DNA of 64,000 nt from Porodaedalea pini. Lineage: Eukaryota; Basidiomycota; Agaricomycetes; Hymenochaetales; Hymenochaetaceae. A model generated the notes under the pieces. It saw only the letters and a program-made list of their open reading frames with translations, made no database searches and had not been told where the DNA came from. The DNA lies in assembly GCA_002794775.1 (NCBI GenBank), contig NBAY01000021.1, forward strand, positions 527,212-591,211, read 5' to 3'. The translations under genes and the position numbers were made by a program. Position 1 is the stretch's first letter, and every line of letters starts with the position of its first letter. Shown here piece after piece: positions 6,578-52,548 of the stretch.

Positions 6578-7710
6578 TAATGGTATGCCAGGGCAGGTCC
6601 CCAATTTCTCAACTGCTGGCAGTGAGATGCAGGTGTGTTTTTCTGCTATTCATGGTAGCATGCCTTGATATCTGATCATTTCTTGTTGATCATAAAGCAT
6701 AATTCCATGTACCTGTCACTACTAAGCCTTGCCTTTGCACACTCACACAGCTCAGCATTCCTAGCAACCCTTCAACCTCCTCAGGGGGCCCACTTTCTGC
6801 ACTAACACCTTCCTCTTCATCTTCCTTGTCCTCATGTCTCTTTCTCCCTGGTCCATTCTCTTCACCAACCAGCCAATTGCCTAGCAGACAATTTCAAGTA
6901 CCAGATCAGCACACAGTGCCACATGGGCTGCCTGAGTCACCAGAGCTGCCAGTTGCTGGCAAGTGGGAGGACTATAGCTTGTCAGCATAGGTGATGCAGA
7001 TGCTGTGTGACACTGACAAATCTGCCACACATTCCTTACATGGTCAGAACCAGGAGACACAGAGTCACAATGTATTCAGTGAAATCAACATTGGTATGGA
7101 CATGGAGCTGTCACTGTGGATGGGCTTTGGTTCAATGGGGTTGATGAGTCCCATGGGTATGATGGGAAGTAGCATGGATGAGACGGGGCCAGATGGTTCG
7201 CATATGGACACATATGCAATGTGCTTCCAGTTCAAAGACCTACTCAATCCATCACAGTTATAAGCCTGCATCTCATCTCACCTGCAGACACCATCTTATT
7301 AGAAGATTTGATATATATAAATGTCAATCAACATTGATCACCATAGATCATTACATAATACAGTGAACATTGTCACTTCAGCAGAAGTTCAGGACTGCAG
7401 AGGTAATTAGATGAAGACAGCCACTTAAGCTAGAACCAGCAGATCATCCAGATATTGGAGGATATTGTGAAATATGTCAAGCAGCATACAGGACAGGATG
7501 GTACATATACCAAAAGATCATTGAATGCATACATGCAGCTGACATAGTCAGAAACAATATAAATATTGTTATTACACATAAATGAATACCTGGGAAATGG
7601 CAGCCAAACACAGCCATTATGTTTATGAGGGACAAGACAATTTATGAACACAGTTATAATATTTATTCTCATGATCTAAATGAATATCTGGCGCATACAG
7701 GCATACAAGT
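6578..7710. other. Unassigned A+T-rich stretch
   Basis: Nothing supportable as a gene was found. A Met/Gly-rich frame at 6,991-7,263 has no domain signature and is probably chance. Not1 homology does not resume here, so the sequence left of the inverted-repeat element at 7,711 is not simply the other side of a Not1 insertion site. Confidence 0.4.
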
Positions 7711-7892
7711 AACTTGAGGTAGTGGGCCATTAGGATGGCAAGCTACGATTACTGTTTACTGAATACTAAATAATTCACTAATGAGAATAATATTTTAGTA
7801 TAATTTGCAAGCTTTAGTCCTCTCATATAAAATGAAAGACACAGAAAACAGTAATCGTAGCTTGCCATCCTAATGACCCACTACCTCAAGTT
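7711..7892. mobile_element. 182-bp inverted-repeat (MITE-like) element at the Not1 break
   Basis: Plus-strand 7,711-7,757 (AACTTGAGGTAGTGGGCCAT...) is repeated inverted at 7,846-7,892, 47 bp per arm with one mismatch. The arms enclose about 88 bp of A+T-rich sequence without coding capacity. A target-site duplication could not be defined. The Not1-like reading frame enters its right arm and stops there after six foreign residues, so the element marks the precise 3' limit of Not1 homology. Confidence 0.7.
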
Positions 7893-10290
7893 CAAAGTTG
7901 CTCAGCACAAGGTTGTTTATGATGAGAGGAATCTTATCGGACGTCTCTTTGGGCGGGGTCTCAAAGTCTGCCTCGTCCAAGATGTCTGGCTTGATGGACG
8001 TGAAGGCTGGCTGAGTCAAGGCCGATGAGAACGCCTGCAGCTGCGCTGCTCCTCCTGCACTAACGGGTTCCGTGGGGGCTGCGAGAGCTCGACAAACCGT
8101 CTCAATAATGTCTGGTCGCTGCTCGGCGAGATGGGGAATATTTAGAAGTGCTTCGCACTGGAGCTTCCACTCTGGTAGGCGTGATTTGAAGAGTATCAGC
8201 GCTTGCACACCAAATTTAAAGGTTGGTGTTGGGGGGGGCACTGGAGGGAGTCGATAACGTAGCGGATGGGCAATGTCGAGGGGGATATAGTCGACTAGTT
8301 GTTGCTGTATGATAGATCCGAATAGGTAGCCTGTCATCGCGAGTTCGCGCGGCGGATAGAACGTCTGGAAGAATTTATATTCGTCGAAGAGGAAGTGGAG
8401 CATGCAAGAGAAGATTTCGTGGTCATGGGGGTTCTTAGATTCCTTCGTGCGCTGTAGCATGATGATGACTTGGTCGATCGTGATCTGTTCGTCGTACATC
8501 TGCTTGAAGATACCGTCGACCTCTGCTTCAATGTCAGAGGAATAGCTGACGACAGTGAACCCAGGCTCTGAATTTTCTGCACTAGGATTCAGAATCATCA
8601 GCCGAGGGTGGATCCGCAGGCAAGCATTTCGTGTCTCCATGCAATATTCTGTGTCTTGCTCATCCATAATGTTTGAACTACGAAGGGAAGGTTTGAAATA
8701 TCAGATGGGAGCTTTTGTCAATGTGAAAGGAAAGAAACGAACTAGGTGCGAAGGGAACGCAAGAAGATGGCGATCGTTGAGGGGCTGAGTGCCATCGTCC
8801 TATTCTCCGCCTGTGGGTCAATCGTCCAGGCAAGTTTCTCGTTTTGCATCTTGAGCTCTAAGAACACGATAATACTGTGCCGATACATTGTCCTGTAGCC
8901 ACTTATCGAGGTTTAGATACGAGCGTCGAGATGCAAGACCAGCGACGTCAAGCGCGAAGACGAAAGGCCGTACTTCAAGCAGCGAATCAAGGATCTTCAG
9001 GTCCTGCGCGACATCTAAGATGCACGTGGTGTTCATCAGGTTCCCGTCGTAGAACTCGCGCAGGGCCGTCGTAAGATACGTCGGCTCGATCTGCCAGATA
9101 CGCATGAAGACGAGCTGGTGGTTCGGATGACCACCGAGGAACATTAAAAGCAGCTGTCGTGTATACTCAATCTGCAATGCATTGCACGGTTTCTGGGAAC
9201 ATAATGAAGATAAGCCACTCATGAAGCAGAAGTAACGATTAGTGACTAGTTACTCACAGGAGCCTGAAACAATCCCATATGCACAATGTCCGCACTTATC
9301 CGGACGGCATTGTCCAACATCTCCCGTACACAGCTTCTGACATTCTCATTATCCGAATCTCCCAGCCTGACCAAAACTTCAAATAAATCCAGCGAGTTCC
9401 ACGTATGACTCTGCACATTAGCAGCCAACGTTTTGATCCTAGGGCTTGCGGCTGCAACGTCGTCAACAGTCACTACGCGCCGACCGGGCAGGCTGACGAA
9501 GTTGACTGTGTCACTAGGTAAACAGAGTAGAGCGTCGAGGAGGCGGAGTTGATAGAGAGAATTGTTCCAGTGTGACCAAAATCCGGCAACAGCAGGTTTG
9601 TCTGCATCGCGGGGAGAATTGACGAGGATAGCAACAAGGAGCTTGAGCGCATTGGTATGACACCTTGCCGATCAGGCCAATCGAAGACCTCGATGACTTT
9701 GCTCCAGTCAAGCTTTGCCCTCTGTATACAAAGTGAGTAGATGCTACAGCACGTACAAGAAGCAAAAAGAGGCTCACAAAGCTACTTATCGCGCTCACAA
9801 GCGCACCGACATCACACAGTTGGGCACCCTCAACCGTAAGGCGTCTGAGAGTCGTGAAGATGTCAACGATTTGCTCGTCCGTCGGAGGGCTCTGATCGGT
9901 CATCCCGAACCTTGCAAGCAAACCTTTTACGACATTCACATCGCTCGTGATTTCTGGATCAAATTGGTTTAAGGCCTGGACAAGAGATGTCTGCGGTGGG
10001 AGGCTGCAAAAATCACCGACATTTTGATGAGCTTTCATGCTAGCAGAATGGGATAAAACGTACCTGAGATTCTGGAACAACTGCGCCAGAATCGGTGCAA
10101 CCATCTCAACACCAAATTTTGTCTGCGCAGCAGCAACAAGTGCTTGGCGCTGCGTTGCATCGAGAAGCGGTGCATCCTGCGGCGGGTCAGACAGTAAAAT
10201 TTGCAGCAGTTTTCCCGCCTGTGCGGGTGACAAATCGGCATGGTCAAAGCACGGATGCTGGCACAGCGCGACCACGACAGGAATTATTAG
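7893..10290 (-). pseudogene. NOT1: Not1 (CCR4-NOT scaffold) fragment
   Basis: In the intact family Not1 is the very large scaffold of the CCR4-NOT deadenylase. This piece covers only an interior stretch. It starts at CQHPCFDHADLSPAQAG (about 10,270), passes DVNVVKGLLARFGMTD, GHPNHQLVFMRIWQIEPTYL (near 9,110) and DHEIFSCMLHFLFDEYKFF (near 8,430), and ends in SNFE at 7,893. It therefore includes the HEAT-type and TTP-binding MIF4G-like region and lacks the N-terminus, the CAF1-binding and the C-terminal Not1 domains. A normal intron survives at 9,193-9,257, so the copy came from genomic DNA. One frameshift near 9,655 breaks the HEAT region. Its 5' side is joined to Prp8 near 10,300 and its 3' side to an inverted-repeat element. 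It is probably not functional as Not1. Confidence 0.85.
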
Positions 10291-10299
10291 GACTGAAAT

Positions 10300-13200
10300 G
10301 GCTTACCGGTTCGGTAGTCAAGTTACCTTCGAACGTCTTGTGGCTGACATAACAAACATGAGTATGGTCTAATAAAAGAAAGACGTGAAGACTGACTTCG
10401 TGACGCGGTAGACATTGGTATCGTCAACGAACCCTACACAAAAGGGCATGATAAATGCAATGCCATTCGCAGACAGAATGAACGGACGCACAAATGATCT
10501 GATTTGAGAAGAGCTCGGAATAGTTTGGACTGTTCAAGTAAGGTTCCGTTGGCTCGGATGAGTAAAGCTGTAGACCCTTCCGAATACGCTCGCGCAAGAC
10601 GTGGCAAGCAGGATTGGCTTTCATTATCTTGATCATAGCTTGCTGGATCAAGGGCTTCATACTCGGGAACCAGTTACCATACGCAGACCATAAGTTGTAC
10701 GCCAAATCCATGCCGATCATAACACCCGTGGGCGAAGGATAGATACTCATCGAGTCCGATACCTGGAAGAGGTTAAGGGGGACAAAGAAAATCACATAAT
10801 TGTTGTGAAACTCACATAGTCCAGGAACTTCGCACGGGTGTATCGTTCAATGTCGTAAGAGTCGAAATCGCCCCAACGAAGCTGAACATCAATCCAGTGC
10901 TTGTTACTCGTCGTTCCATCCAAACATCTTTGTTCTGAGCAACATTTAGAGCAGTCGCAAAGAACAAGCATATTAAGACTCACGGCAGTAGCTAGTGACG
11001 GTCGGGAAATGTTCCACTGGACATAAATATTTAGCAAAGCACAAAAGTGTGAGAAACCAGGCGCGACAACGTTACCTTGTATGCAGAGAACAGCAATATG
11101 TCCGCACATGAGCTATAAAGAAGGACTTTGAGAAATAGTTCCGTTGCTAAGTGAATCTGACTCACGAGTTCGTCTTGTAACTCTTACGAGGATCGATCGT
11201 CTCCTTCTGGACTGTCTCAATCTGCAAAGGCTCAAGCTCCTGATCGAAGACCTGACATAAGTCCATGATGACGCTTTTGTGGATCTTCTGCCACAAGTGG
11301 GCACGGAAGATCTGAATGAGAGATCTTCAGGGTCGGGACCTTTCCGTGCATGAAAATACCGCGGTCAAATCCAACTGCACTTGGAAACCGACATAGACGT
11401 TCGCACGATTGATAGTCGGACTCCACCAAAGTGTGAATCGACGGTTGAGAATTTGATTAAGACCAGATCGTTGAGCATTTGTCAACTTCTTGTATCTCAT
11501 CGACTCTTCAAGTCCAGACAGAGGACCTGGCGGATACGGTTGTTAAACTGTTGAACACCTATGAAATTCTTCAGTGTTACATATTCCATGGAAGCTTTAA
11601 AACTCTTACCTTCGTCGGAAACGCGGAGGAAGGCTTGTGCAGTACGCTTCTTCGACTGCTCGTTGGTCAAGTTCCACACCCCGTCCTTGAGCGACAACTG
11701 CCCTCCACTCATCGTCCGGATCTTCGGCAGAATTCGCACCTCGAAGCCGCTCATCGAGAAGAGTAGCTGAGGGTCGTTTTTGGAGTAGACACTAACAAAC
11801 GTGTCCTCCCATTCAATCGTCGTCAAAGAAAGAGGCAGGCTCTGCTTCACGTTCCAGAACACAGCTCGACCTAGATTGACGTTGTGCTTGATCAGGCGCA
11901 TACGGCAATCCCGCGGCCAACATCTCTTGTTGTTCTACCCAATAGCGTTGTTGTTTGTTGGATCCGGATTCGCGTTGAGGTAACGTTGTATAAGGTCGCG
12001 TGATTCCTCGGCGGTGAAGCGGAATAAAATATACAAACGATCAGCACAACGAGAATAGAGACGGACTGGATGGCGTGTCTCGGTCGCAGAATCACGGTAC
12101 TGCAGGAAATTGTTGGGCAGTTGTGGGGGACCCGCCATTTCACTTGCGCGTTACAAGCCGAGGATGAGAAGATCAAGGACAGGACCATAGTATTGGAAGA
12201 CAAGGGCAGAGAACTGCAGACCGCGGATCATCCCGTATATGTTCGTATGTGCCATATCTTTGTAGGCGAGGACACAGTTATTCTTCGCTGTGATATAGTC
12301 CGCAAGATTATGGTCGAGAATAAGACGAAGCAGACGGTCGAGAAGGGTCAGGTCAATCTTTTCGTAGACCTTCGACAGTACGGTCTCCATCATCACTACG
12401 CATTCGCCCTCGCTCGTCTCCCAGATGTCCGTTAAGTTATTGATACCCTGACACCACTTGTACACCAGAAGGGGAGGAGGTTCAGTGTCCGCAAGCTTGA
12501 TCCACGCCGGGAATAACCCGCGCTTATCAGCCTCAAAGAATAAGAATTGGTCAAGATATGCGAGCTTGTCATATGTGTCGAAGAACTCAATGCCTGCCTC
12601 TTTGAAGGCTCGCTGAGTGAGCAAGAGACGCTTGATCCTAGACAGACCTGCACGCGAATCAATTAGCTACACCCTACGACCAATTAGAAAAAGAACATAC
12701 ATTCGTGTGGATTGTCATACGCCTGCTCAATGAGAGCAAGCTCCTCACGCTGAGATTGGTTAAGACGACCTTTGACGCTGTACGCCTCTTTCAACTTCGT
12801 GTCATGCATGTACAAAAGGGGACTGTATGGAAACATCAGTGAGAGCTTCTGAAAGACGTAGTTGGTTGAATCTTACGGGAATGGGATGGGAGCAAATTTC
12901 CGACTCTCAAGCCAGTGGACCGTCGATGTGTAGATAGCAACGGCCTCCTCAGTGCTAATGTAAGGACCATCTTTGAGGTAACCATGCTGACACTCCTGCT
13001 CAGCTTTCAAGTACAGTCGAGTAAGACGCCTTATGTTCTTCTTGACCACAGCCTTGTCGACAGTCGCACCATGCCTGATACGCTCGCGATTGTAGTGCGC
13101 AACCGAGCACCACCAGTCTGCCTTGCTCTTGATGTACCGCAGGATGATGTTCTCGATCGCAGTCGGCATGCCTGGGACCCTTCATGGAACTGTAGAATAA

Positions 13201-14440
13201 CGCTTAGTACGCAAAGTCCAGATTCATCCAAACGACGTACTGTTTGCCTCCCAGCAGCGCTACGCTTCCGACAAGTCCTGCAAGATAGTCTTCGCCTTGT
13301 TCTGCTTGATCGACTCCGGTATCATATCGAGAATGTTGTGCATCACGGCAGTGCGTAATTCCAAGTCATAGTGCGATTCGACACGCTGCTTCGTGACCAT
13401 CTTTGCGATGCCCTTGCTGTTGTGACCCTCGAACTGACGCGCGAGCAAGTTTGTGAGCCAGTGCTCAAGCAGTGGTACAATTCCACGCATGAAGAGCCAC
13501 ACTCGCCAACCTGGAGCACAAAACACACAGCCTGGGCCCTTACCAACAGGTCCCATATTGAAGCGATAGTAGATTAGATGCTTGAGATCTTTGTACATCC
13601 GGACCTGACGCATAAGTTTATACTTGTAACGGTACATGCCAGTGAAAGCGCCGGTATGCGCGAAGATATACTGCAATGCATCCGCCAGTTGGAAGGCATC
13701 CACATTGCTAAGCCGGAATTGGACGTGCGCATCGACAACGAGCTTCGTGAGGTGAATAATTTCACGGCACAAATGGAATGCATTTCCAAAGCGAGACTTT
13801 TTGCGTTCCTCCGGCTTCAGATTCATGTTGTAATCGAGATGAAGGTCATTCAAGTTCTAGAAGGATTGGAAGTCAGAATGATATAACGCAGCTTTCCCAA
13901 CGATCATACCTTGCGACGGACGAGCAAGTTCAGCATGTTGTATCCTTGCCTGCACACTTGCAAACCAGCCTCCACCCAGTCCAGTTTTGTGGTCTGGAAA
14001 AATTTCGTCGCCTTCAACTGATGGAACAGGTTCTTTTTCGTCATCGGCTCCTCCGGCCTCGTCTTCAGCTCGTTGAGAACAAAGCACTTAAGTAGCTTCT
14101 GGTACGACACACGAACCTTTACAGGATGGTTCAGTGGGCAGTGCTCCAAGTACCAGTTCTTCACCGATGGTACATCTTGTGCGCGGCGCATGTGTCCCGA
14201 GCGGCGACTGTAAGGCGCCAGCGCCCACCATAATGCAATACCGTCCACAGTGCTCTCATTCTCCAAATCCTTATCCGAGAGGAATGGCTCAACCTCATCT
14301 GGTAGCTCGAATTCATCCTCGTCCGCGCCGTTGGGTCCGAAGATTTCGTCCTCATGAGAAACGAGAGGCGGATTCTTTGGTTGGAAACCACGAGAGGAGA
14401 CAGGGGTTGCAAGGTTGAACAGACAGAAAGGAAAGCGGAT
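10300..14440 (-). pseudogene. PRP8: Prp8 (U5 snRNP core splicing factor) fragment
   Basis: Prp8 is the catalytic-core scaffold of the spliceosome. Near-family peptides run in order: [13 protein letters not shown] (about 14,300), [50 protein letters not shown] (about 13,540), [35 protein letters not shown] (about 12,460), [27 protein letters not shown] (about 11,410), [17 protein letters not shown] (about 10,740) and TFEGNLTTEP (about 10,320). The first part of the protein and everything after the start of the RNase-H-like domain, including the JAB/MPN end, are missing. Near 11,490 the text jumps from NNRIRQV to [13 protein letters not shown], an internal loss of roughly 250 residues. Two conserved Trp codons are stops (near 13,250 TAG and 13,185 TGA), and frameshifts occur, for example near 11,345. 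Several GT...AG introns are retained. Confidence 0.88.
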
Positions 14441-14661
14441 GAAGGAACAAAATCGCGGCAACAAAAATAATAAATGAGGAACAACGAAGTAATGTGTTTT
14501 TTTTTTAATTAGTCAGAGAAGCCAGAAGGGGCACGACGAGGGTAAAGAGGTTATGAAGGCGCAGGAAAACAGGCAGAGGGTAGGGAGGTGAGAATGGAAT
14601 GACAATGACGAGAAGAGGAGATAAATTGCCTGATGAGTAAATATAAAGTCACAAACAAATT
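14441..14661 (-). other. eIF4G 3' flank joined to Prp8 interior
   Basis: On the minus strand this follows the eIF4G stop codon and looks like ordinary 3' untranslated sequence with a T-rich tract. It then passes without a Prp8 start codon or N-terminal exons into the interior of Prp8. The exact junction cannot be fixed without the source genes, but it lies between about 14,440 and 14,480. Confidence 0.5.
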
Positions 14662-16299
14662 CTAAGCTAAAAAAGCAAGAAGCTTGTCGCTGTCCATTGA
14701 CTTGCTTGCTACATGCGTCCGTCGTTCCTCATCTAGCTTCGCGCCCTATATCATCGTCGCCATAAGACTGAAAGCCTTAGACGCATCAATTGCGATGCCG
14801 TCGAGAAGTTCCGGGACAGGCATGAAGCCCTCCTCGAAGGATGCGGGAGAACAGAGATCCCGTGATAGAGCACGCGAAAACAGGTCGGCAACGGATTTGG
14901 CATCAGCCTCCTTCGCCTCGATAACAGACATGACAAGATTCTCGATGAGAATATGTCGATGCTCCGAGGGAAGGCAGAGAAATACTCTTCCGCCTCGTCG
15001 CGATCGCGGATAGTGAAGAACTCCTTGCGGTCTTGGTCAATCTTCTTTTCCGCCTGCTCCTTCGACATCGACAGTTTCCCAGAGTCCTTCTCGAGGATCT
15101 CGCCCTCCTCGCCCTCCTCACCATTCTAAGCCTCAGCGGGACTATCCTCCGACTTCTCCTGTACGGGCTTCGAACGTAGAAGCAGGTTGAGTCTGGGACG
15201 CTGAGCAGGCTGGGCAGGTTCCACAGGTGCGTTGTGGGTCAAGTCGACACTCGTTGTACGGCTTGACAGGCGGCTTGGACGAGACGAGGATGCAGTAAGA
15301 GCCTCGTTAGCGGCCTCAGCAGTCTGCAGCATCTGGAACATGTTCGTGTTCGAACTTGTCCTTCTCCATTCTTCGTGAAGACGCTAGCTGGCCCGAAGTT
15401 CATGGCGCCACTACCCTTCTGAATCTTGCCGAAGTTCGTCAGATCGCTCACCTTGTTGGCAGGCCTCGAAGGACCAGAGGCAACGGCCCATCCGTCGGGA
15501 CCTACTTGAGCCTTGCCGTCACGGTCATGGCCACGGCGTAAACCACCACGAGACATGGCTGAGCACGCCAAGTTATGTTACTCCTGTTGCGCCTTCTCTT
15601 TCGCAGCCTATATATTTCGTAAGCACAAGTGAAATTGAGTAACAAAGCAAGAGCGCGTACCGCGTCATGAATCTGAGCGATTGAGCAGCGACTAAGTTGC
15701 GGGTAGTTCATTTCCTTTCCCGCAATTCAATCTCATCCTGTCCAAGAAAGTCAGCTCAACGAAAGGCTATGAAGCAGAAGGCACGCACCTGTAACATGAG
15801 CTACATACGAGACGACACGTTGCTGCTCTTTGCAAGCTCCTTCGTGCGACTGAAGTAGACGTTCATGTGTCCGCGAGCCTTAGAGGTATCGAGCGCCTGA
15901 CCAACAGTTGTGGGGAGTTTATATAAGCTTTCGATCTCTTGATGCATTCAAGCATGATACGTTCCGTAAGCATCTGAAGCTTGAAGAGCTCGCCGATGAA
16001 CTTGACGAATCCGAGGCCTTGACGCTTGGCCTTCTGAGCAGCGTAGTATTTGTCCGAATACAGCGCACTCTCGCCAGCCTCCTTGTTTTCCTCTTTTCAT
16101 TGGAATCCTTAAGAGCCTGATCCTCTGTCGCCTTCACGAGAGCCGCTGCCGCTGTCGACTCCTTCTGCGTCCGGCCGCGCCCGAAGCCTTCCTGACAGCG
16201 ATTCAGAAGGTAGTTACAGAAACGCAGTCCACCTGTAATCGACTTGCCGTCAGCATTGCGGATACCATCATCCTGCACGTTCGGGCTGATCTGCTCCAT
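14662..16299 (-). pseudogene. TIF4631-like: Translation initiation factor eIF4G, C-terminal half fragment
   Basis: eIF4G bridges the cap-binding protein, eIF4A and the ribosome. The piece starts inside the MIF4G domain at [19 protein letters not shown] (16,299). It continues through [17 protein letters not shown], a Gly/Arg linker with SMSRGG, GPDGWAVA and NFGKIQKGSG (about 15,560-15,410), then an MA3-type end with DLCSPASFEEGFMPVPELL (about 14,850). It closes with MDSDKLLAFLA and a TAG stop at 14,662-14,664. A short deletion/frameshift lies near 15,940, followed by the GHMNVYFSRTKELAKSS segment and a TAG in place of a Gln codon. The N-terminal half, including the PABP- and eIF4E-binding region, is absent and is replaced in frame by RPB1. 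No functional eIF4G can come from it. Confidence 0.85.
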
Positions 16300-17530
16300 C
16301 AGGTCACCCAGTGAGTTTCGTACAGTCCCGTCGTAGTAGACAGCCACGTCTTCGAGTGCCTTTACAAGTCGACGTTGAATGTAACCAGACTCGGCCATCT
16401 TGGACAGCATTGGCCTCTGGGCTGAAGTCATCCTTCGTAAAGTGAGGTAGTGTGCAATGTCTGAAGCCAAACGGGACTCACTTCCCTTCAACGGACTGCT
16501 GACCAACACAGACGGACATCTGCGAGATGTTAATGAACGAACCCTTCGAACGCGCCACAACCATCTGTTCGACATTGTTGTCCTCCTTCAGGTTCTTCTG
16601 TGCGGATTGACCGGAGTGGTCACGCGCCAAGTTGAGATCGCGTTCGACTCGACTCTCGAACGACTCGCGAATAGTCATACCCGGTGCAGCTTTCAGACAG
16701 TCGTTAGATGCATCTTCAATGGCCTGCACGACATTCTGCTTTCGCATCTTGATCTGCTCCATGATGTACACCATTGTCTTCTTATCCGCGACTGTATCAC
16801 CAATGCCTATACTGAATCCATTGTGGAACAGCCAGTAATTAACAATCTGCTGGAGACCAGTGAACAGCGTATGAGTCGCTTCGGGACCTTTTTCGCGGAA
16901 GACGACATGGATAAGACCGCCTTGCGACGCTCCAGCCGTCTTTTTCTCCACGATACCAAAGATGATCTCGCCGTTTTCAATGAGCATGCCATCGTCGAAA
17001 ACGGGGCTCGAAGATTTCGGATCAGGCGAGCGATATATGTTTATTCCGCGAGGAATCGTCATGCTAAGAATTTGTTTGCCCGTCCATAATGGCTTCGGCT
17101 TTAAGATTGCCGGCGTCGGAATTGTGCTCCCCAGTCCGGCACTCCAGAGCAGGATGTTTTGCACCTGCACCAAGTCGAGGAAGCTATCCCGCAGAGTGAA
17201 TTTCCGGAACCGCACGACGTGTCCTGTACGATGCCCATAACAGTTTGGTTCGCCTGCGGCGAGATGATCTGCTTCACAACCCATGCAATTGACTGAGCTC
17301 GGCTCTCGTCTCTTCGCTCTGAGGAATGCTAGACGGAGCTGAGAAAGAGATGTAAGGCTAATCTTAAAAGTGACATACTGCATGTTCATCTCATTCGCCA
17401 TCGAAATCGGCGTTATACGGTGGAGTGACGGAAAGATTTAGACGAAAGGCTAAAATACACTAATCAGCGACCATACAATGAGTTAAAGGTGGATAAACAC
17501 GTACTAGAGTAAGGCATAAGTCGCACGCGA
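16300..17530 (-). pseudogene. RPB1: RNA polymerase II largest subunit (RPB1) fragment
   Basis: RPB1 carries half of the Pol II active site. The piece begins at HRVRLMPYS. A 55-bp intron (17,450-17,504, GTACGT...TTTTAG) is spliced in phase to give [22 protein letters not shown], so the metal-binding aspartate motif is present, followed by a 1-nt shift. Further on are [68 protein letters not shown] and [12 protein letters not shown]. After [11 protein letters not shown] the text jumps to [16 protein letters not shown], so the bridge-helix segment is deleted (near 16,415). Two frame changes lie around 17,250-17,300. At about 16,300 the frame runs straight from TVRNSLGDL into eIF4G. Clamp head, C-terminal parts and the heptad tail are missing. 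Confidence 0.87.
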
Positions 17531-19066
17531 TGCCTCGCTGGAGAAAGCTTCTTCTCATCTGCAGGGGACGTCTTCGTCGCTGTCTTCTTCCCTCCAGCTG
17601 TTCCCGCAGATGCAGTTGATCGAATTAAATTCGCCGACGGTAACTTTTGAATGACGGACGTCTTGTTCGCTGTTGTTTTCGTAGATACTGTAGTAATGGG
17701 CGACACCTTCCATGTGCGCGACGCTGCGCTTACCGTACTAATTGGCGCCGCACTCGTTTCAGAGACGCGACGCGGCCGTCCTTTCGGTAGCGCAGGCGCC
17801 GGCGTTTGCGGAGATCTTGAGGTTCCGGTGCTGCGCATCGAGGTCGTTGACGTGGTCGAGACTTTCCTCGACCGAGTAACAGAATCCCACGGAGTCATAT
17901 TTTCACGAGGCATCTTGAATGTAGACTCGCGTGTTGAAGCCCCGCTCCTGCTGCTGGACATTGACACATTCGAGAGCAAGGATGTCGGTCGCGACGATGG
18001 ATGAGGTGGACGAAGAGTACCTTGCTGGCCTGCAGTGGCGGCATTTCTATGGATGGTCGATGCATGTGAACGAGTAAATGAAACAGAAGCGGCGACAGAT
18101 TTTGGTCTTTGCACGGAGACGACGCTTGGGAGTTTTACACTCGTAACACTCGCGGTGTCTCCCGTGTCTTTCCCAGTTGTGCGTGGAGAGCGAGAAGCTA
18201 CACCGGGCTGTCGAGAAACCACGGAAGGTGACGCGGTAGAGCGCGCAAGGGACGAGGTCGAGCCTTTTAGTCGCGGGCTTTCTTGTTCGTCACCCTCCCC
18301 GTCCACGTCCATACCTGAAGTACACGAGACCGCACTCGGTGCCCTATGGACGCTTGGACTCGTGCTACGCGGGGTGGACGGCGCAAACTTCGAGTCTGGC
18401 CGGCTCTTCTTACGCTCACGCTCCGTTGCAGTCGTAAGGCGCGATGACGTTCGGCTAGTCGTCGACGCAACGCTGCGCGCTACGCTCCGGACAGATGCGC
18501 TAGATGAGGTGACAGCTGCATTCCTCCGAGCAAGGTTCTTGTTCAGCACGCTCGTACGAAGCGAATGCGATGTGCTCATGCTATCGCACTCAGTAGTGTC
18601 TTCAACCCTGATGCCGCAGAAGACGACAATGCAGCAGATAAGATGGAAGATGCAGATACCAGAGACGGCTTTGTTGTCATCGGCATGCTGCTTTGCGTTG
18701 CTTCGATGGAGCCAAACAACTGTACAGGCCGCGACTCCGATTTAGCAAGAGGTGGGGAAGGCGCCGGCGAGGAGGAGAACAAGAAATAGCGCGAGCATAA
18801 ACGATAGCTAGCATTTGTTAGTCTCAAGGACAGGTGGTAGGTTCTGTGCTCGTGCTCACCTTTATGTCCCCAAACCTCCGAGTCCGCGTTGCTGCCTTCG
18901 TCCATCGCGTCCTCATCCAGTAGATCCCAGACGTCGTCTGAGAAGCGATCCTTCGCACGATGAAAGAGTGATTGAAGGTCCTCTTGCCATGCTGTCGTCG
19001 ACCTCTTCGTTGCCTCGGGCAGTGCGGGTGGGCAGGCAGGCAGCTGTGACAGGACGGCTACCATGA
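17531..19066 (-). pseudogene. Ser/Thr/Arg-rich disordered protein with a possible BTB-type N-terminus
   Basis: The minus strand opens with Met at 19,066 and a short N-terminus containing QSLFHRAKDRFSDDVWDLL and SEVWGHK. The splice GT at the Lys codon with AG near 18,813 would continue it as AIVYARA. The order WGHK-AIVYARA resembles fungal BTB/POZ proteins, from memory only. After a damaged stretch (18,800-18,590) a 371-codon open frame (18,579-17,464) is almost wholly Ser, Thr, Arg and Pro, with TSSASVRSVARS-like runs and no folded domain. It runs in frame into RPB1 at about 17,530. I do not recognise the Ser-rich part with confidence. It could be the middle of the same BTB protein or another gene. 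The sequence just upstream (19,067-19,260) would be its promoter. Confidence 0.45.
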
Positions 19067-19507
19067 GAAGCAGTGATGTAGTATGATTAAGAAAAAAGCA
19101 GAGAAAGCCCAAGAGAAAAGTGAAGAAGATGATTCAGCTCAAGTGTGTCTCCCGCTGAGGATCGCATGAGGGAGCGAAACGAGTGTGTTTGCTGCAGCAA
19201 AACAGACTCGTCGACGACCGCAAGGGTGGAGATCACATGTTGGCACTGTCGTCAACTCTGCTTTCGACCGATTTTTAATTCAACCAGGTCACTTTATTTT
19301 ACAAAAAATACATAGACAGACAGAGAATTGTCTGAAATTTTTTTACATGGCTCAAGATTGCGATTTGGATGTTTGAATAAAATTAAATATGCCAATGAAG
19401 AAAGTGAGCACTGTACAGCCACAAAAGCAGTGAATGACTTCATCGCCACCACTCAATTTAGCAGAAAAGGGGTCCAAAATTAACATATTTGGTATGCCAT
19501 CAGCTTA
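19067..19507. other. Upstream region of the mosaic and unassigned A+T-rich sequence
   Basis: The first 200 bp are G+C-richer and could be the promoter and 5' untranslated part of the first mosaic gene. From about 19,270 the sequence becomes A+T-rich, changing character. The right-hand boundary of the mosaic is therefore probably near 19,260-19,290. I see no direct or inverted repeat matching the left end. Confidence 0.35.
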
Positions 19508-19887
19508 TAAAAGCTGACAAAAACCCAAATCGGGCTCCCTAACTTTGCCCACAACAAAAGACGATACTTCGTAAACTCAGTAATCGTAATGCTACCAGAT
19601 AAACCACATGTGATGATCTGCAAGAATGTCACAATGGAGATCGACGTGCCAGTTAGAAAGGATGCAAACTTAATGATCAAGAACTTTACGGAAAGTACAT
19701 TACATGAGATAGCTAAGATTATACAAGACGCTCATCCCAGAGGAGCAAGTGTTATTGAACAGCATGAAACAGCTTACGCTATTGAAACTAAGATTAAGGC
19801 CATGATCAGTGAACTTAGAATACTGATACCACTGGACAAAGGTTTCCTTTGGAAGGAAACCTATTATCACGGAATAACACCGACCAC
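19508..19887 (+). pseudogene. 5' part of an older ORF (F), split by the 41-kb retrotransposon nest
   Basis: The frame is open from just after a TAA at about 19,507, with a first Met at 19,589, to the first base of the A1 LTR. It contains KLTKTQIGLPNFAHNKRRYF and then PHVMICKNVTMEIDVPVRKD. If the nest is removed and the reading resumed at 60,964, the same frame continues without a stop through ADIRREDKILPRTPEV to 61,342, giving about 226 codons from the first Met. I recognise no domain. Its position before an LTR-like sequence at 61,395 suggests it belongs to an older transposable element rather than a host gene, but that is inference. Confidence 0.5.
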
Positions 19888-30838: not shown

Positions 30839-32998
30839 GTGTTGGGAGTGTTCCCCTTTGTTTTCTTTCAGCTTTGGTCCATCAGATTCAGTATGCCTCG
30901 ATCTTGTCTTCGTGGCACTCGTGGTGCCAGCCCGATGCCGCTTTCGGGTGCAGACAATGCACCTTTCTTCGATGGCTCGAACCCTCGTCTCATAGGTCGG
31001 TTCTTGGAGGATGTTGGGCTTCTCTGTGACGAGGCTCAGCTCTCAGAGGCTGACAGAGTTTATTGGACCATTTACTACGCTTCCTTGGATATTGCCGATC
31101 AGTGGAGTTTGTTCCCAGAGGCCATGGCACGTTCGCCGACATGGTCTAGCTTTGAGACGGCAGTTCTATTCTTATATCCCGAGTACCCTGACAACACTCA
31201 TCGCTATCTACGTGCAGATCTTCAGGAGTTGGTCCAGAGGTCATCCGCCAGTCCCATGAACACTGTGGAGCAGCTGTATGAGTATTTCCGGTCATTCCTT
31301 CGCATTTTTCGGTACCTCGAAGCCCACGATCGTATAACGGATATGGAGGCAAAGAGGCTCTTTGTCCAGGGCATCCCAGCATCGCTTCGAGCTCACGTTT
31401 TCGATCGGTTTGAGATTTTATTCAGTGACAGACTCGCCGATGACGTTTTCAGTATTGAGGAGGTTATGGAGGCTGCCGATTTTATTTTAAACCGAGTTTC
31501 TGCGCGCCGTTTACACTCGGTCGAGGAGCTGGGTCCAGCACGTTCCGAACGGTACCCTCACCACGCGTCTCAGATCTCTGGTTCTGGTTTTACAGATTTT
31601 ACAAGTACACCAACATCTCAGTTATCTACTTCAAGCGTCCCCCTGCGTTCCCCAGTGATTCCCTTTGTTTCTCCGGCTGCCCAAGTGTCAGAAACGAAGA
31701 TACGATCCGTTGCGTCCGTTCCGGGCGTTCCGGGCGTTCCGGGCGTTCCGTGCGTTCCGTGCGTTCCGTCCATTCCGACAGCAGACTCGACACCGACGCG
31801 TACAACTCATTCCGGCCGCGTTTTTGGTTGTTTCTTTTGCAGTTCCCTCGAGCATTTCATCAAGGATTGTCCAGTGGTTTTGGAGTACTCTCGGACCCGT
31901 CGCTGCATGCGAAATTCGGCAGGGCAGGTTGTTCTTCCGAGTGGATTATTTGTTCCATCGAGTTTCGGTGGCCATGACTTACAAGAGAGGTTCGATGCAT
32001 TCTATGACGCATATCCGGAGCTTCGGATGGCTCCGTCGAGTTCCTCGAGTGCCCCTGACATCCCTCCGAAGGTTACGGACACTCGGAGTGCCGATCATTT
32101 CTCACATTCAGCTTCTGTCAGGCACATCACTTCCGGTGCTTCTATCTCAAGTGTACAGCCTCTTACCCCGCGTTCTTCGACTTCTCCGCGCTTCTCGAAG
32201 CCTCCGGCTACATTCAATTCGATTCCTCGGTCCTCGAGCTCGCCGATCGACTCTTCAAAGGGTAGTTTCGGCCACGAAATGAATTTTCAGTACAGAAATG
32301 CACCGGGAAGGCATTTTAAGGCAGATTCTTCGACACCCAGCCTATTTAATTCAAGTTCTCATGTCTGCCCGGTGTACGCGTCGGATTTCGACAGTTCAGA
32401 GGTCCCTCTATCGTGTTCCGACGTTTCGGACCCGGCCTTAGTGCCGGATTCGAATTCTATGCGTTTTAGCAGCCCCGACATTGCAGATTCAACTTTGCAG
32501 GCTTTCTCTCCGAGTTTTTCAGATATTTATAGCATTTCGAAGCCGTTCCGCGAGTTCCGTGCGTTCCGTCCGACGCAACGAACGGAACGACGTTCCCACG
32601 CTCAAATCAACTCCGCAACCATCGGTTTTGGTTCAGAATTGGCGTCTCAGCATATGGTTTCGACTCCAGTCACTTTTCAGAGTGGTTTCTCGTCGAGCAG
32701 CTCAGCAAATTCGATCTCTTGTGTTTCCATGCCCTCAGAAGCGTCGTTCGACTCATCAGATGATTCTGTCTCGGATTCAGACACCTCGGATGTTCCCCTC
32801 ACACCGCTTTTGCCTTCGTCTTTGACACTCGAGGAGCGGAGTGACCGGGGACGGTCACTATTAGAAGGTCCGTGGAGATGTGGAGATCCCGATGCCGCTG
32901 GCCTCGGAATCGGCTCTATTAGGTTCGACTCGACTCAGGACAGTCTTACAAGTATCCCCGACGCATTTCAGGACACTTTCAGTGTTTGGCAGTATTAA
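30839..32998 (+). CDS. gag: gag polyprotein of element D (intact, 719 codons)
   Basis: The frame is uninterrupted. The first Met is at 30,839, but MPRSCLRGTRGASPMPLSG at 30,893 is the more usual gag beginning, right before ADNAPFFDGSNPRLIGRFLE. The capsid-like core (about residues 40-220) includes YLRADLQELVQRSSASPMN and EVMEAADFILNRV. A VPG/VPC tandem repeat lies near residues 293-313. A CX2CX4HX4C zinc knuckle CFFCSSLEHFIKDC starts at residue 331. A very Ser-rich tail follows. Unusually, the frame does not stop before the 3' LTR: the last 40 codons are encoded by the LTR itself and it ends at 32,998. The gag family is the same as in E (2,088-3,321). The 5' untranslated region is only about 35-90 bp. 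Confidence 0.85.
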   Translation: MLGVFPFVFFQLWSIRFSMPRSCLRGTRGASPMPLSGADNAPFFDGSNPRLIGRFLEDVGLLCDEAQLSEADRVYWTIYYASLDIADQWSLFPEAMARSPTWSSFETAVLFLYPEYPDNTHRYLRADLQELVQRSSASPMNTVEQLYEYFRSFLRIFRYLEAHDRITDMEAKRLFVQGIPASLRAHVFDRFEILFSDRLADDVFSIEEVMEAADFILNRVSARRLHSVEELGPARSERYPHHASQISGSGFTDFTSTPTSQLSTSSVPLRSPVIPFVSPAAQVSETKIRSVASVPGVPGVPGVPCVPCVPSIPTADSTPTRTTHSGRVFGCFFCSSLEHFIKDCPVVLEYSRTRRCMRNSAGQVVLPSGLFVPSSFGGHDLQERFDAFYDAYPELRMAPSSSSSAPDIPPKVTDTRSADHFSHSASVRHITSGASISSVQPLTPRSSTSPRFSKPPATFNSIPRSSSSPIDSSKGSFGHEMNFQYRNAPGRHFKADSSTPSLFNSSSHVCPVYASDFDSSEVPLSCSDVSDPALVPDSNSMRFSSPDIADSTLQAFSPSFSDIYSISKPFREFRAFRPTQRTERRSHAQINSATIGFGSELASQHMVSTPVTFQSGFSSSSSANSISCVSMPSEASFDSSDDSVSDSDTSDVPLTPLLPSSLTLEERSDRGRSLLEGPWRCGDPDAAGLGIGSIRFDSTQDSLTSIPDAFQDTFSVWQY
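31717..31776 (+). repeat. Nine-base tandem repeat GTTCCGGGC/GTTCCGTGC in D gag
   Basis: Six or seven in-frame copies of GTTCCGGGC or GTTCCGTGC encode a Val-Pro-Gly/Val-Pro-Cys run. The same TTCCG-rich unit appears in the D LTRs and at about 32,545-32,590, so the motif has spread within this element. Confidence 0.8.
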
Positions 32999-51525: not shown

Positions 51526-52548
51526 TGTAGATCCTGACTTAGGGGTGTCGGGGATCAACAGTCCTTTTGGGGACGTGATCGCATTGCTCTGGGAGGTTAG
51601 GGGTAGACTGTGGTGAGATCACTTGACGTACCGGTACGTGTCGGTATGCTTCGGTACACGTCGGTACGCGTCAGTACGCTTTGGTACGTGTCGGTACGCT
51701 TCGGTACGCATCGGTACGCTTCGGTACGCGTCGGTACGCTTCGGTACGCATCGGTACGTGTCGATATCGAGAACAAAGGTCAGGAACTCCTGTCGCGTCT
51801 GTGGTTTGACCGGTACGGAGTCGGTACGCGTGGGTAATCAACACCAGTACGATGTGATCACGACGAGCGACGAGGTTTGAGTTACGAAGTATGAGACGAG
51901 AGACGGTTTCGAAAGACGAGATGCTAAGATGAAGACGGAATGACTACAAGATTACAAGAACTAAGACGGATCGCACTCAAGTTACCCTATCTGAGGGAGA
52001 CTCTGCGGTAGAACTGACTTGTCCTCTACCTACGACATGGGGTGTATATTTATACTAAGTCCAAAGATCTATCTACAGTTAATAATTTCCATTCGGGCAT
52101 ACTGTGCATATCAGTCGAAACATAGAGAAGTCGAAAGGAAAAGTCATAGGTCATAGAGGCGCGCATAGAGTGCATAGAAATCAGAAGAACATAGGAAAAA
52201 CATAAATCATAATGAGGAAAACGTCCGCTTCGCATCCGATCACACCGGTGCTCCACCGGAACTCAGATCGTCCAATCGGTACGTGGCTCCCGTCATCGGA
52301 CAGCAGTCCGGTATGCATCTTGGCTGTATGCTCCATGTGACCGCATCCCTAATTGTCGAGATAAGATCTCCGGTATGTTCCGGTATGCTTTCGGAGGTGT
52401 CGGAATGTGCTGATGACGCGATCGCGAGGTTCTGATTCGAGACTGGACCGATTGGGTTGAGTCCGGTACTGATCGGTATGCATCAGAACCAGTTCTTGAA
52501 TGCTTCTGGAGTGATCGGTGGTGATGGGACGATCGGCACGGCTCTACA
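51526..52548 (-). repeat. C LTR, copy 2 (1,023 bp)
   Basis: It is inverted relative to copy 1 at 42,163-43,095. Ends are TGTAGATCC (51,526) and GGCTCTACA (52,548). The left flank is CTGG and the right flank GCGA, the reverse complements of CCAG and TCGC that belong to the two different insertion sites. It is 90 bp longer than copy 1, exactly nine units of its 10-bp minisatellite. Confidence 0.85.
51633..51762 (+). repeat. 10-bp minisatellite GGTACGNNTC, 13 units
   Basis: Thirteen consecutive units alternate GGTACGCTTC with GGTACGCGTC, GGTACGTGTC or GGTACGCATC. The other C LTR has only four units (about 42,952-42,991). The tract gives long spurious open frames in several phases. Confidence 0.9.

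Follow-up and report, generated by a model that had tools for sequence, protein, structure and literature searches.

A mosaic of five gene fragments in Porodaedalea pini, very likely cargo of a Helitron2-like transposon with a palindromic 3′ module

In the genome of the basidiomycete Porodaedalea pini (assembly GCA_002794775.1), fragments of five genes lie head to tail on the minus strand of a 64,000-nucleotide stretch of contig NBAY01000021.1 (C21:527212-591211, hereafter the window), which raises the question of how pieces of RPB1, eIF4G, PRP8, NOT1 and a Ser/Thr-rich protein gene came to be joined. A sequence-only reading had proposed that they were cargo of a gene-capturing DNA transposon, either a Helitron or a Pack-type element, with an undescribed capture system or chaotic repair as fall-backs. 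The analysis supports the proposal in the form of a Helitron of the Helitron2 type: the mosaic is very likely a single, non-autonomous copy of a rolling-circle transposon that resembles Helitron2 elements and carries gene fragments. We assign it to this type because of its ends, its pre-insertion sites, its copy number and its association with Rep/helicase genes. Helitron gene capture is known from maize and bats; here, mosaics of pieces of essential genes have spread through a fungal genome. Three features stand out: the scale for a fungus, the presence of cargo inside cargo and the double-headed 3′ terminus.

Insertion sites and ends of the element

We searched the genome (53.27 Mb, 201 contigs) with a joined-flank query made of window positions 7552-7711, one supplied base and positions 19590-19749. 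The pre-insertion site of the element was found uninterrupted at four other places (C7:675209-675529, 94%; C30:26429-26749, 91%; C137:48195-48496 and C65:83611-83912, 85% each), with matches spanning query positions 1-321. The element was delimited by these matches (Table 1), which corrects the extent of 7893-19066 given by the sequence-only reading. The base between the window flanks had been supplied in the query, so that the window adds nothing to the count of target bases. Empty sites were then compared for 13 units with both flanks in hand, the window's included. Six of them (C1, C143b, C75, C48a, C48b and C5) presented one-base empty sites, the flanks being contiguous in another sequence; since C1 and C143b are the same insertion, these represent five distinct two-sided empty sites. 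The host base at the insertion point was a T in all five, and one-sided comparisons (3′ side only) at C79 and C77, where the elements lie within a Rep open reading frame (ORF), also gave a T. The single T between the flanks at five out of five distinct sites indicates that no target-site duplication is formed, as in the Helitron superfamily. The bases preceding the target T at these seven sites were A, G, T, A, G, T and G. Several insertions were nested within the same family: RPB1 cargo flanks the C5 insertion on its two sides, whereas the nesting is seen at the 3′ flank for C62, in PRP8 cargo, and for C77 and C79, in Rep. With precise insertion for the window copy and five others, neither fall-back explanation is needed.

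Table 1. Features of the element, in window coordinates
Feature	Positions	Strand	Basis or remark
Whole element	7712..19589	minus	5′ end at 19589, 3′ end at 7712; joined-flank matches
5′ asymmetric terminal inverted repeat TACGATTACTG	19578..19588	minus	Common end of copies and pattern count
Possible 5′ hairpin, 5′ repeat paired with downstream AGTATCGT	19561..19587	minus	Predicted fold
Fragment S, BTB/CAP-Gly-type gene (5′ region and part)	17533..19589	minus	Pyrrhoderma noxium homologues
Fragment R, RPB1 (domains 3, 4, start of 5)	16298..17532	minus	Pfam and DNA match to L001
Fragment E, eIF4G (MIF4G part and weak MA3)	14406..16297	minus	Pfam, solved structures
Fragment P, PRP8 with 1-kb internal deletion at 11519/11521	10277..14405	minus	Pfam, PDB chains, DNA match
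Fragment N, NOT1 (HEAT and TTP-binding regions)	7892..10276	minus	Pfam and DNA match to L052
180-bp palindromic 3′ module	7712..7891	minus	Arms of 46 bp (7712-7757, 7846-7891), both of them complete 3′ termini
3′ asymmetric terminal inverted repeat CAGTAATCGTA	7744..7754	minus	Reverse complement of 5′ repeat, 32 nt from terminus
3′ hairpin GCCAT-CCTA-ATGGC	7726..7739	minus	Predicted fold

Read on the minus strand, the 5′ terminus is a T followed by TACGATTACTGAGTTTACG. All 39 other scored copies of positions 19390-19589 stop within 9 bases of 19589 (40 of 131 candidates were scored), and, when up to 3 mismatches were allowed, the 5′ pattern TTACGATTACTGAGTTTACGAA gave 128 hits (60 + 68), against none for the reversed control. 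Among 19 5′ ends read, one (C133) begins differently. At C25 (550274, 550297 and 550320), three 5′ ends lie in tandem with a spacing of 23 bp, resembling the repeated 5′ termini of FoHeli elements (PMC5148889; here and below, comparisons with published systems refer to excerpts of the cited papers).

The 3′ end is formed by the palindromic module, in which a 46-base terminus is present twice, head to head, on the two sides of an 88-base spacer. The 3′ end runs from CAGTAATCGTA through GCTT and the hairpin to CCACTACCTCAAG, with a T beyond it, and over its opening 11 bases it is the reverse complement of the 5′ terminus. The predicted fold of the module reached -59.2 kcal/mol, compared to -13.0 +/- 3.0 in 200 shuffles (z -15.4). 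A subterminal 3′ hairpin is another feature of the Helitron superfamily; the one found here gave -4.2 kcal/mol alone (z -2.39, with 7 out of 200 shuffles as good) and z -2.82 together with the repeat (2 out of 200).

We scored 40 copies of the module out of 110 candidates. A correctly facing 5′ end among those listed was located within 25 kb of 35 modules, at distances of 2-14 kb, while 5 had no listed partner. The paired modules were oriented as in the window in 16 cases and inverted in 19, and 15 of them additionally had, no more than 16 kb away, a 5′ end that points away from the module. Many of the 35 pairs are near-identical subfamily members; several share a length of 7.72 kb and are not independent. 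Pairing by distance alone does not prove a unit, as the flank comparison shows for C62 and C77. The inverted module is found in C48b (320-328 kb), one of the five distinct empty sites, and therefore both module orientations terminate real insertions.

These data bear on a different view of the locus, a Pack-type transposon with terminal inverted repeats (TIRs) or a miniature inverted-repeat transposable element (MITE), in which the palindrome would be a separate MITE placed at the end by chance. The 46-bp inverted arms and the different flanks on the two sides of the module speak for it, and the MITE reading of the palindrome was the one we initially favoured. We dropped it when the empty sites put the edge of the element at the outer edge of the palindrome: they join the outer edges of the module and the 5′ end, and no target duplication is seen in them. 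Pack-MULE and Pack-CACTA elements have TIRs at both ends and a target duplication, whereas only the 11-bp asymmetric terminal inverted repeat (ATIR) is common to the two ends here. Considering also the 35 out of 40 modules facing a 5′ end, this explanation is highly improbable. An integron-like cassette was rejected too, since the window contains a single module and none between the pieces.

In 16 modules, a selection from those that were fully readable (L018, L021, L023 and L048 were excluded, L023 and L048 because they repeat places already used), the outward 46-base arm never showed more than 2 changes from the consensus. Mismatches added up to 11 in outward and 27 in inward arms, with fewer in the outward arm in 8 modules, more in 3 and equal numbers in 5. 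That the outward arm is closer to the consensus is suggestive only, because the copies share ancestry and the consensus is biased toward one arm type. We tentatively propose that the palindrome is a double-headed Helitron terminus, with two ATIR-hairpin-CTCAAG 3′ ends, which ends the element in either orientation, and that this portable terminator together with cargo insertion into cargo constitutes a capture-and-shuffle system. If so, a ready-made terminator would allow new mosaics to arise without the original 3′ end, and the bidirectional palindrome would be a variation on how Helitron elements define their end. Among the titles and abstract openings of the part of the open-licence literature searched, no description was found of a palindromic double 3′ end in Helitrons, or of Helitrons carrying these genes.

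Captured fragments, their copies and their decay

Pfam, solved structures for two pieces and DNA alignment confirmed all five pieces, their minus-strand location and the order claimed from the sequence alone. Fragment S, described before as a Ser/Thr-rich protein piece, comprises the presumed start and a Ser/Thr-rich part resembling the linker of a BTB/CAP-Gly-type protein, with the BTB part missing. Its homologues in Pyrrhoderma noxium showed 43-57% identity, four out of six relatives of one cargo protein came from this species, and the window matched P0001 only from residue 164 and P0006 only from residue 549. No intact host copy was identified among 146 protein-search matches, some of which lie in long open frames; many copies of the S-type cargo lie within open frames of ~450-900 residues, in C7, C15, C38, C41, C105, C106, C133, C143, C171 and others. 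In Pyrrhoderma noxium, four similar BTB/CAP-Gly-type proteins (P0001, P0002, P0004 and P0006) are all encoded on one contig of 633,854 bases, which suggests that an element may carry this gene in that species as well.

Fragment R was 94.8% identical to L001 on contig C5 over 1123 columns, and fragment N 93.7% identical to L052 (C3:1908000-1914500) over 2423 columns, with CNOT1_TTP_bind and CNOT1_HEAT recognised by Pfam. In fragment P, Pfam detected PROCN and RRM_4, with U5_2-snRNA_bdg under the cut-off; positions 11463-14405 align to L051 (2975 columns), 10424-10846 were assigned from Prp8 chains in the PDB and 10277-10423 by eye. The eIF4G call relied on MIF4G in Pfam, where MA3 fell just under the cut-off, and on solved structures. 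Fragment E was matched over nearly its whole length by C78, C106, C37 and C26 at 93-96%, and at 88% by the presumed host eIF4G on C33, whose best intact candidate is C33:46164-46910 (open frame of 469 residues). The presumed host loci L001 (RPB1), L051 (PRP8) and L052 (NOT1) align at ~93-96%, also across the gaps between ORFs, and their matches end inside genes at the joints that they cover, in agreement with the earlier claim that the pieces start and stop within genes. Host status is presumed, with open frames of 1207 residues in L001 and 565 in L052; the PRP8 locus on C12 was picked for its position outside clusters and is not the top-scoring one for PROCN.

The same gene regions are abundant in the genome. 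RPB1 domain 5 gave 145 matches at ~106 places, PROCN 116 matches, MIF4G 89 and CNOT1_TTP_bind 33, host genes and paralogues included; C5 alone covers positions 1-266 of RPB1 domain 5. A DNA search with positions 7500-19400 gave 86 matches (31 out of 461 candidates scored). Thus, the term single-copy holds for the intact genes only and not for their fragments, and the window does not carry the only copy of these genes, which occur elsewhere in a less broken state. RPB1 is a common fungal marker gene, and annotators and primer designers should be aware that one of its domains matches ~106 places, the true gene and paralogues among them.

The copies vary in fragment subset and order: PRP8 is directly joined to RPB1 at a common CCG in seven loci, and NOT1 lies between RPB1 and PRP8 in C6. 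Among the loci in hand, the S-R joint (17532) was present in 22 loci (19 places, since some overlap), the R-E joint (16298) in 2 loci (one place), the E-P joint (14405) in 2, the PRP8 deletion joint (11520) and the P-N joint (10276) in 1 each, and the joint between NOT1 and the palindrome (7891) in none. A scar of chaotic repair or an assembly chimera would fit the abruptness of the joints, two of which contain short shared words (CCG between PRP8 and RPB1 in the seven loci, ACAAG between PRP8 and a repeat in C128), and the joint of NOT1 with the palindrome, found nowhere else among these loci. However, the insertion is precise when compared to the four pre-insertion sites, and five out of six checked interior joints recur in other contigs, as the sequence-only reading had proposed to verify. 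We consider this origin extremely unlikely for the element as a whole, although repair may well have shaped its interior.

Two observations concern related sequences. Further eIF4G fragments, in most cases with 83-86% identity to positions 14870-16300, form a second family that is spread over many contigs, mostly outside the mosaic clusters, and has a member 1.3 kb left of the window (C21:524439-525936); a different element probably captured this gene as well. The two ends of contig C5 (C5:1-4720 and C5:1463681-1468400) carry mirrored units equidistant from the contig end, which are probably assembly breaks within this transposon family. A telomere-linked repeat was rejected, as the terminal 200 bases are cargo-gene sequence and contain no telomere repeats.

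The copies also allow the order of capture to be read, since they are nested and datable. Beyond the RPB1 piece (host L001 349-2747), the sequence of the BTB/CAP-Gly-type gene continues in L020-L022, L053 and L054, so that RPB1 lies inside earlier cargo and was not appended at the 3′ side. This arrangement is consistent with a nested insertion followed by loss of the inner ends, or with a repair patch. The synonymous divergence (dS) between host and copies was roughly 0.13 for RPB1 (range 0.12-0.19), 0.08 for PRP8 (0.05-0.11) and 0.06 for NOT1 (0.04-0.07), and these differences suggest separate capture times. Among copies, the ratio of nonsynonymous to synonymous divergence (dN/dS), determined for loci in hand covering at least 80% of the test region after removal of identical sequences, was 0.74 for RPB1 (253 pairs), 0.75 for PRP8 (136) and 0.79 for NOT1 (36), indicating that these copies evolve near-neutrally. 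With the host gene taken as ancestral, the frequency of C-to-T changes at CpG was 1.6-2.7 times that at the remaining C/G sites, which points to CpG decay as in methylated repeats.

The cargo could alternatively be kept as a shield, in the sense that small-RNA silencing of the element would also hit RPB1, PRP8, NOT1 and eIF4G. These four of the five source genes are essential, the copy number is high and, for three of them, the fragments are 93-96% identical in DNA sequence to the presumed host loci, which would suit such a role. Against it stand the near-neutral decay of the RPB1, PRP8 and NOT1 copies, the CpG decay, suggesting that the fragments are methylated anyway, and a recognition bias toward long conserved genes. 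Overall, a shield seems improbable.

Rep/helicase genes and classification

Ten Helitron_like_N matches were found at 8 loci, all on contigs also bearing RPB1 or PRP8 fragments, and the C62 Rep copy contains DUF6570, Helitron_like_N and PIF1. Among the 120 Rep relatives listed out of 564, most were unnamed; the named ones included Athelia, Coprinopsis and Pluteus. In C5, C37, C54 and C128, a 5′ end with PRP8 cargo, accompanied by RPB1 in C5, C37 and C128, lies 12-17 kb from Rep on the opposite strand. In C128, PRP8 is joined to an ORF that adjoins a PIF1-like C-terminal ORF; this joint recurs at four further places (L034-L037, L038 being C128 itself), and at C75 it belongs to a unit that has its two ends and an empty site supported from either side. 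No matching 5′ end was found directly upstream of Rep in L075 and L077-L081, and none of the Rep relatives returned (up to 1250 residues) matched the C-terminal ORFs. With the last ORF as protein query, only three Favolaschia proteins were recovered (27-28% identity), and PDB searches with this ORF and with Rep yielded nothing useful. We infer that the element is mobilised by the linked Rep/helicase. A foldback repeat with ~0.5-kb arms is present in or beside the Rep/helicase genes at C54 and C128 (L075:1-525 and L081:1409-2264).

In the proposed mechanism, Rep/helicase would nick at the 5′ TACGATTACTG end, one strand would be peeled off through the cargo up to the 3′ hairpin of the palindromic module, and the copy would be pasted adjoining a T. 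The cargo may have grown stepwise, from a first element with most of the BTB/CAP-Gly-type gene and its 5′ region, into which the 2.4-kb RPB1 piece would have been placed next. The eIF4G, PRP8 and NOT1 pieces could have been added later via self-nesting, deletions and short-homology joins, all pieces thereafter being copied passively and decaying as pseudogenes.

Elements of the Helitron2 group begin with a 5′ T and carry an ATIR of 8-15 bp and a 3′ hairpin beside the 3′ ATIR, with RepHel reversed in some (PMC3627910). The present element shares the 5′ T, the ATIR (TACGATTACTG at the 5′ end and CAGTAATCGTA 32 nt from the 3′ end), the adjacent 3′ hairpin and, in the putatively linked Rep/helicase genes on at least four contigs, the opposite direction, and differs in its weak 5′ hairpin and in having the 3′ end on both palindrome arms (PMC3627910). 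FoHeli elements from Fusarium oxysporum, also of the Helitron2 type, have the 3′ repeat ~20-51 bp from the end, a single 3′ end combined with several 5′ ends, hairpins (at the two ends in the case of FoHeli1 and FoHeli2) and a reversed ORF in FoHeli4 and 5 (PMC5148889). The two systems have in common the ATIR, hairpins (significant here at the 3′ end), an insertion-point T of ambiguous assignment, nesting, multiple 5′ ends per 3′ end and an ORF in reverse direction (here that of the putatively linked Rep), while end sequences and target differ; the excerpts describe no long palindromic 3′ module for FoHeli and no amplified multi-gene mosaic among its 27 (partially) captured genes (PMC5148889). 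Helitron1 elements start with 5′-TC, end with CTRR-3′ and insert between A and T, whereas the ends here are TTACG and CTCAAG(T) and the flanks vary. Helentrons insert in TT and have an endonuclease domain (PMC4067079); four of the seven sites here have no TT at the insertion point, and no endonuclease match appeared in the three Rep pieces scanned (partial ORF).

Other systems share some of these properties. The HELPO Helitrons of Pleurotus are Agaricomycete Helitrons with extra genes, but their 3′ ends are CT[A/T]G and, according to the authors, no intact HELPO carries P. ostreatus gene fragments (PMC4289320). Helraiser and bat Helitrons have a 3′ hairpin terminator and capture host DNA; unlike here, where RPB1 lies inside an earlier cargo gene, Helraiser has Helitron1 ends (TC...CTAG) and 3′ capture by read-through (PMC4778049). 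In Pseudocercospora, a fungal housekeeping gene, histone H3, was likewise amplified to hundreds of copies, but that system involves one gene, a hAT DNA transposon and decay by repeat-induced point mutation (PMC6710886).

A further possibility is another element that inserts without duplication, for instance a tyrosine-recombinase (Crypton-like) element whose circle would insert at a T, and the same T at both ends fits recombination through a one-base match equally well. The combination of ATIR and 3′ hairpin is a Helitron2 feature (PMC3627910), and Rep/helicase genes are found on the same contigs, although no search aimed at recombinases was made; we regard such an element as very unlikely.

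Several results weigh against the assignment to a Helitron2-like element. The target T lacks the published Helitron2 context TTTT^T/C at the seven sites, a preference that FoHeli does not share and that is therefore not defining (PMC5148889). The C62 unit has its flanks in two different sequences, and the C77 unit has its 3′ flank in Rep while its 5′ flank matches nothing in hand; as paired, neither is a simple insertion. The flanks of C7, C105, C133 and C143a gave no informative match. The 5′ hairpin (-2.9 kcal/mol, z -0.94, 30 out of 200 shuffles as good) is not significant alone. No Rep/helicase-bearing copy was read complete with both ends; the C128 copy is truncated beyond Rep, at a shared word of 5 bp, and has no module on that side. 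The C-terminal ORFs linking Rep to cargo had no significant Pfam match, and PIF1, the best PDB match for the C-terminal ORF, was weak (E 0.4). Finally, the dN/dS among copies of S was 0.47 (171 pairs), lower than for the remaining cargo, a value that low sequence complexity and codons rich in CpG can produce.

Outside the element, positions 19882-60963 form a repeat nest with several inverted copies and with matches to reverse transcriptase, RNase H, integrase and gag, probably long terminal repeat retrotransposons. The window also contains tandem repeats, with 10-bp GGTACGCTTC-like units at 51623-51782 and 9-bp GTTCCGGGC-like units at 31718-31797.

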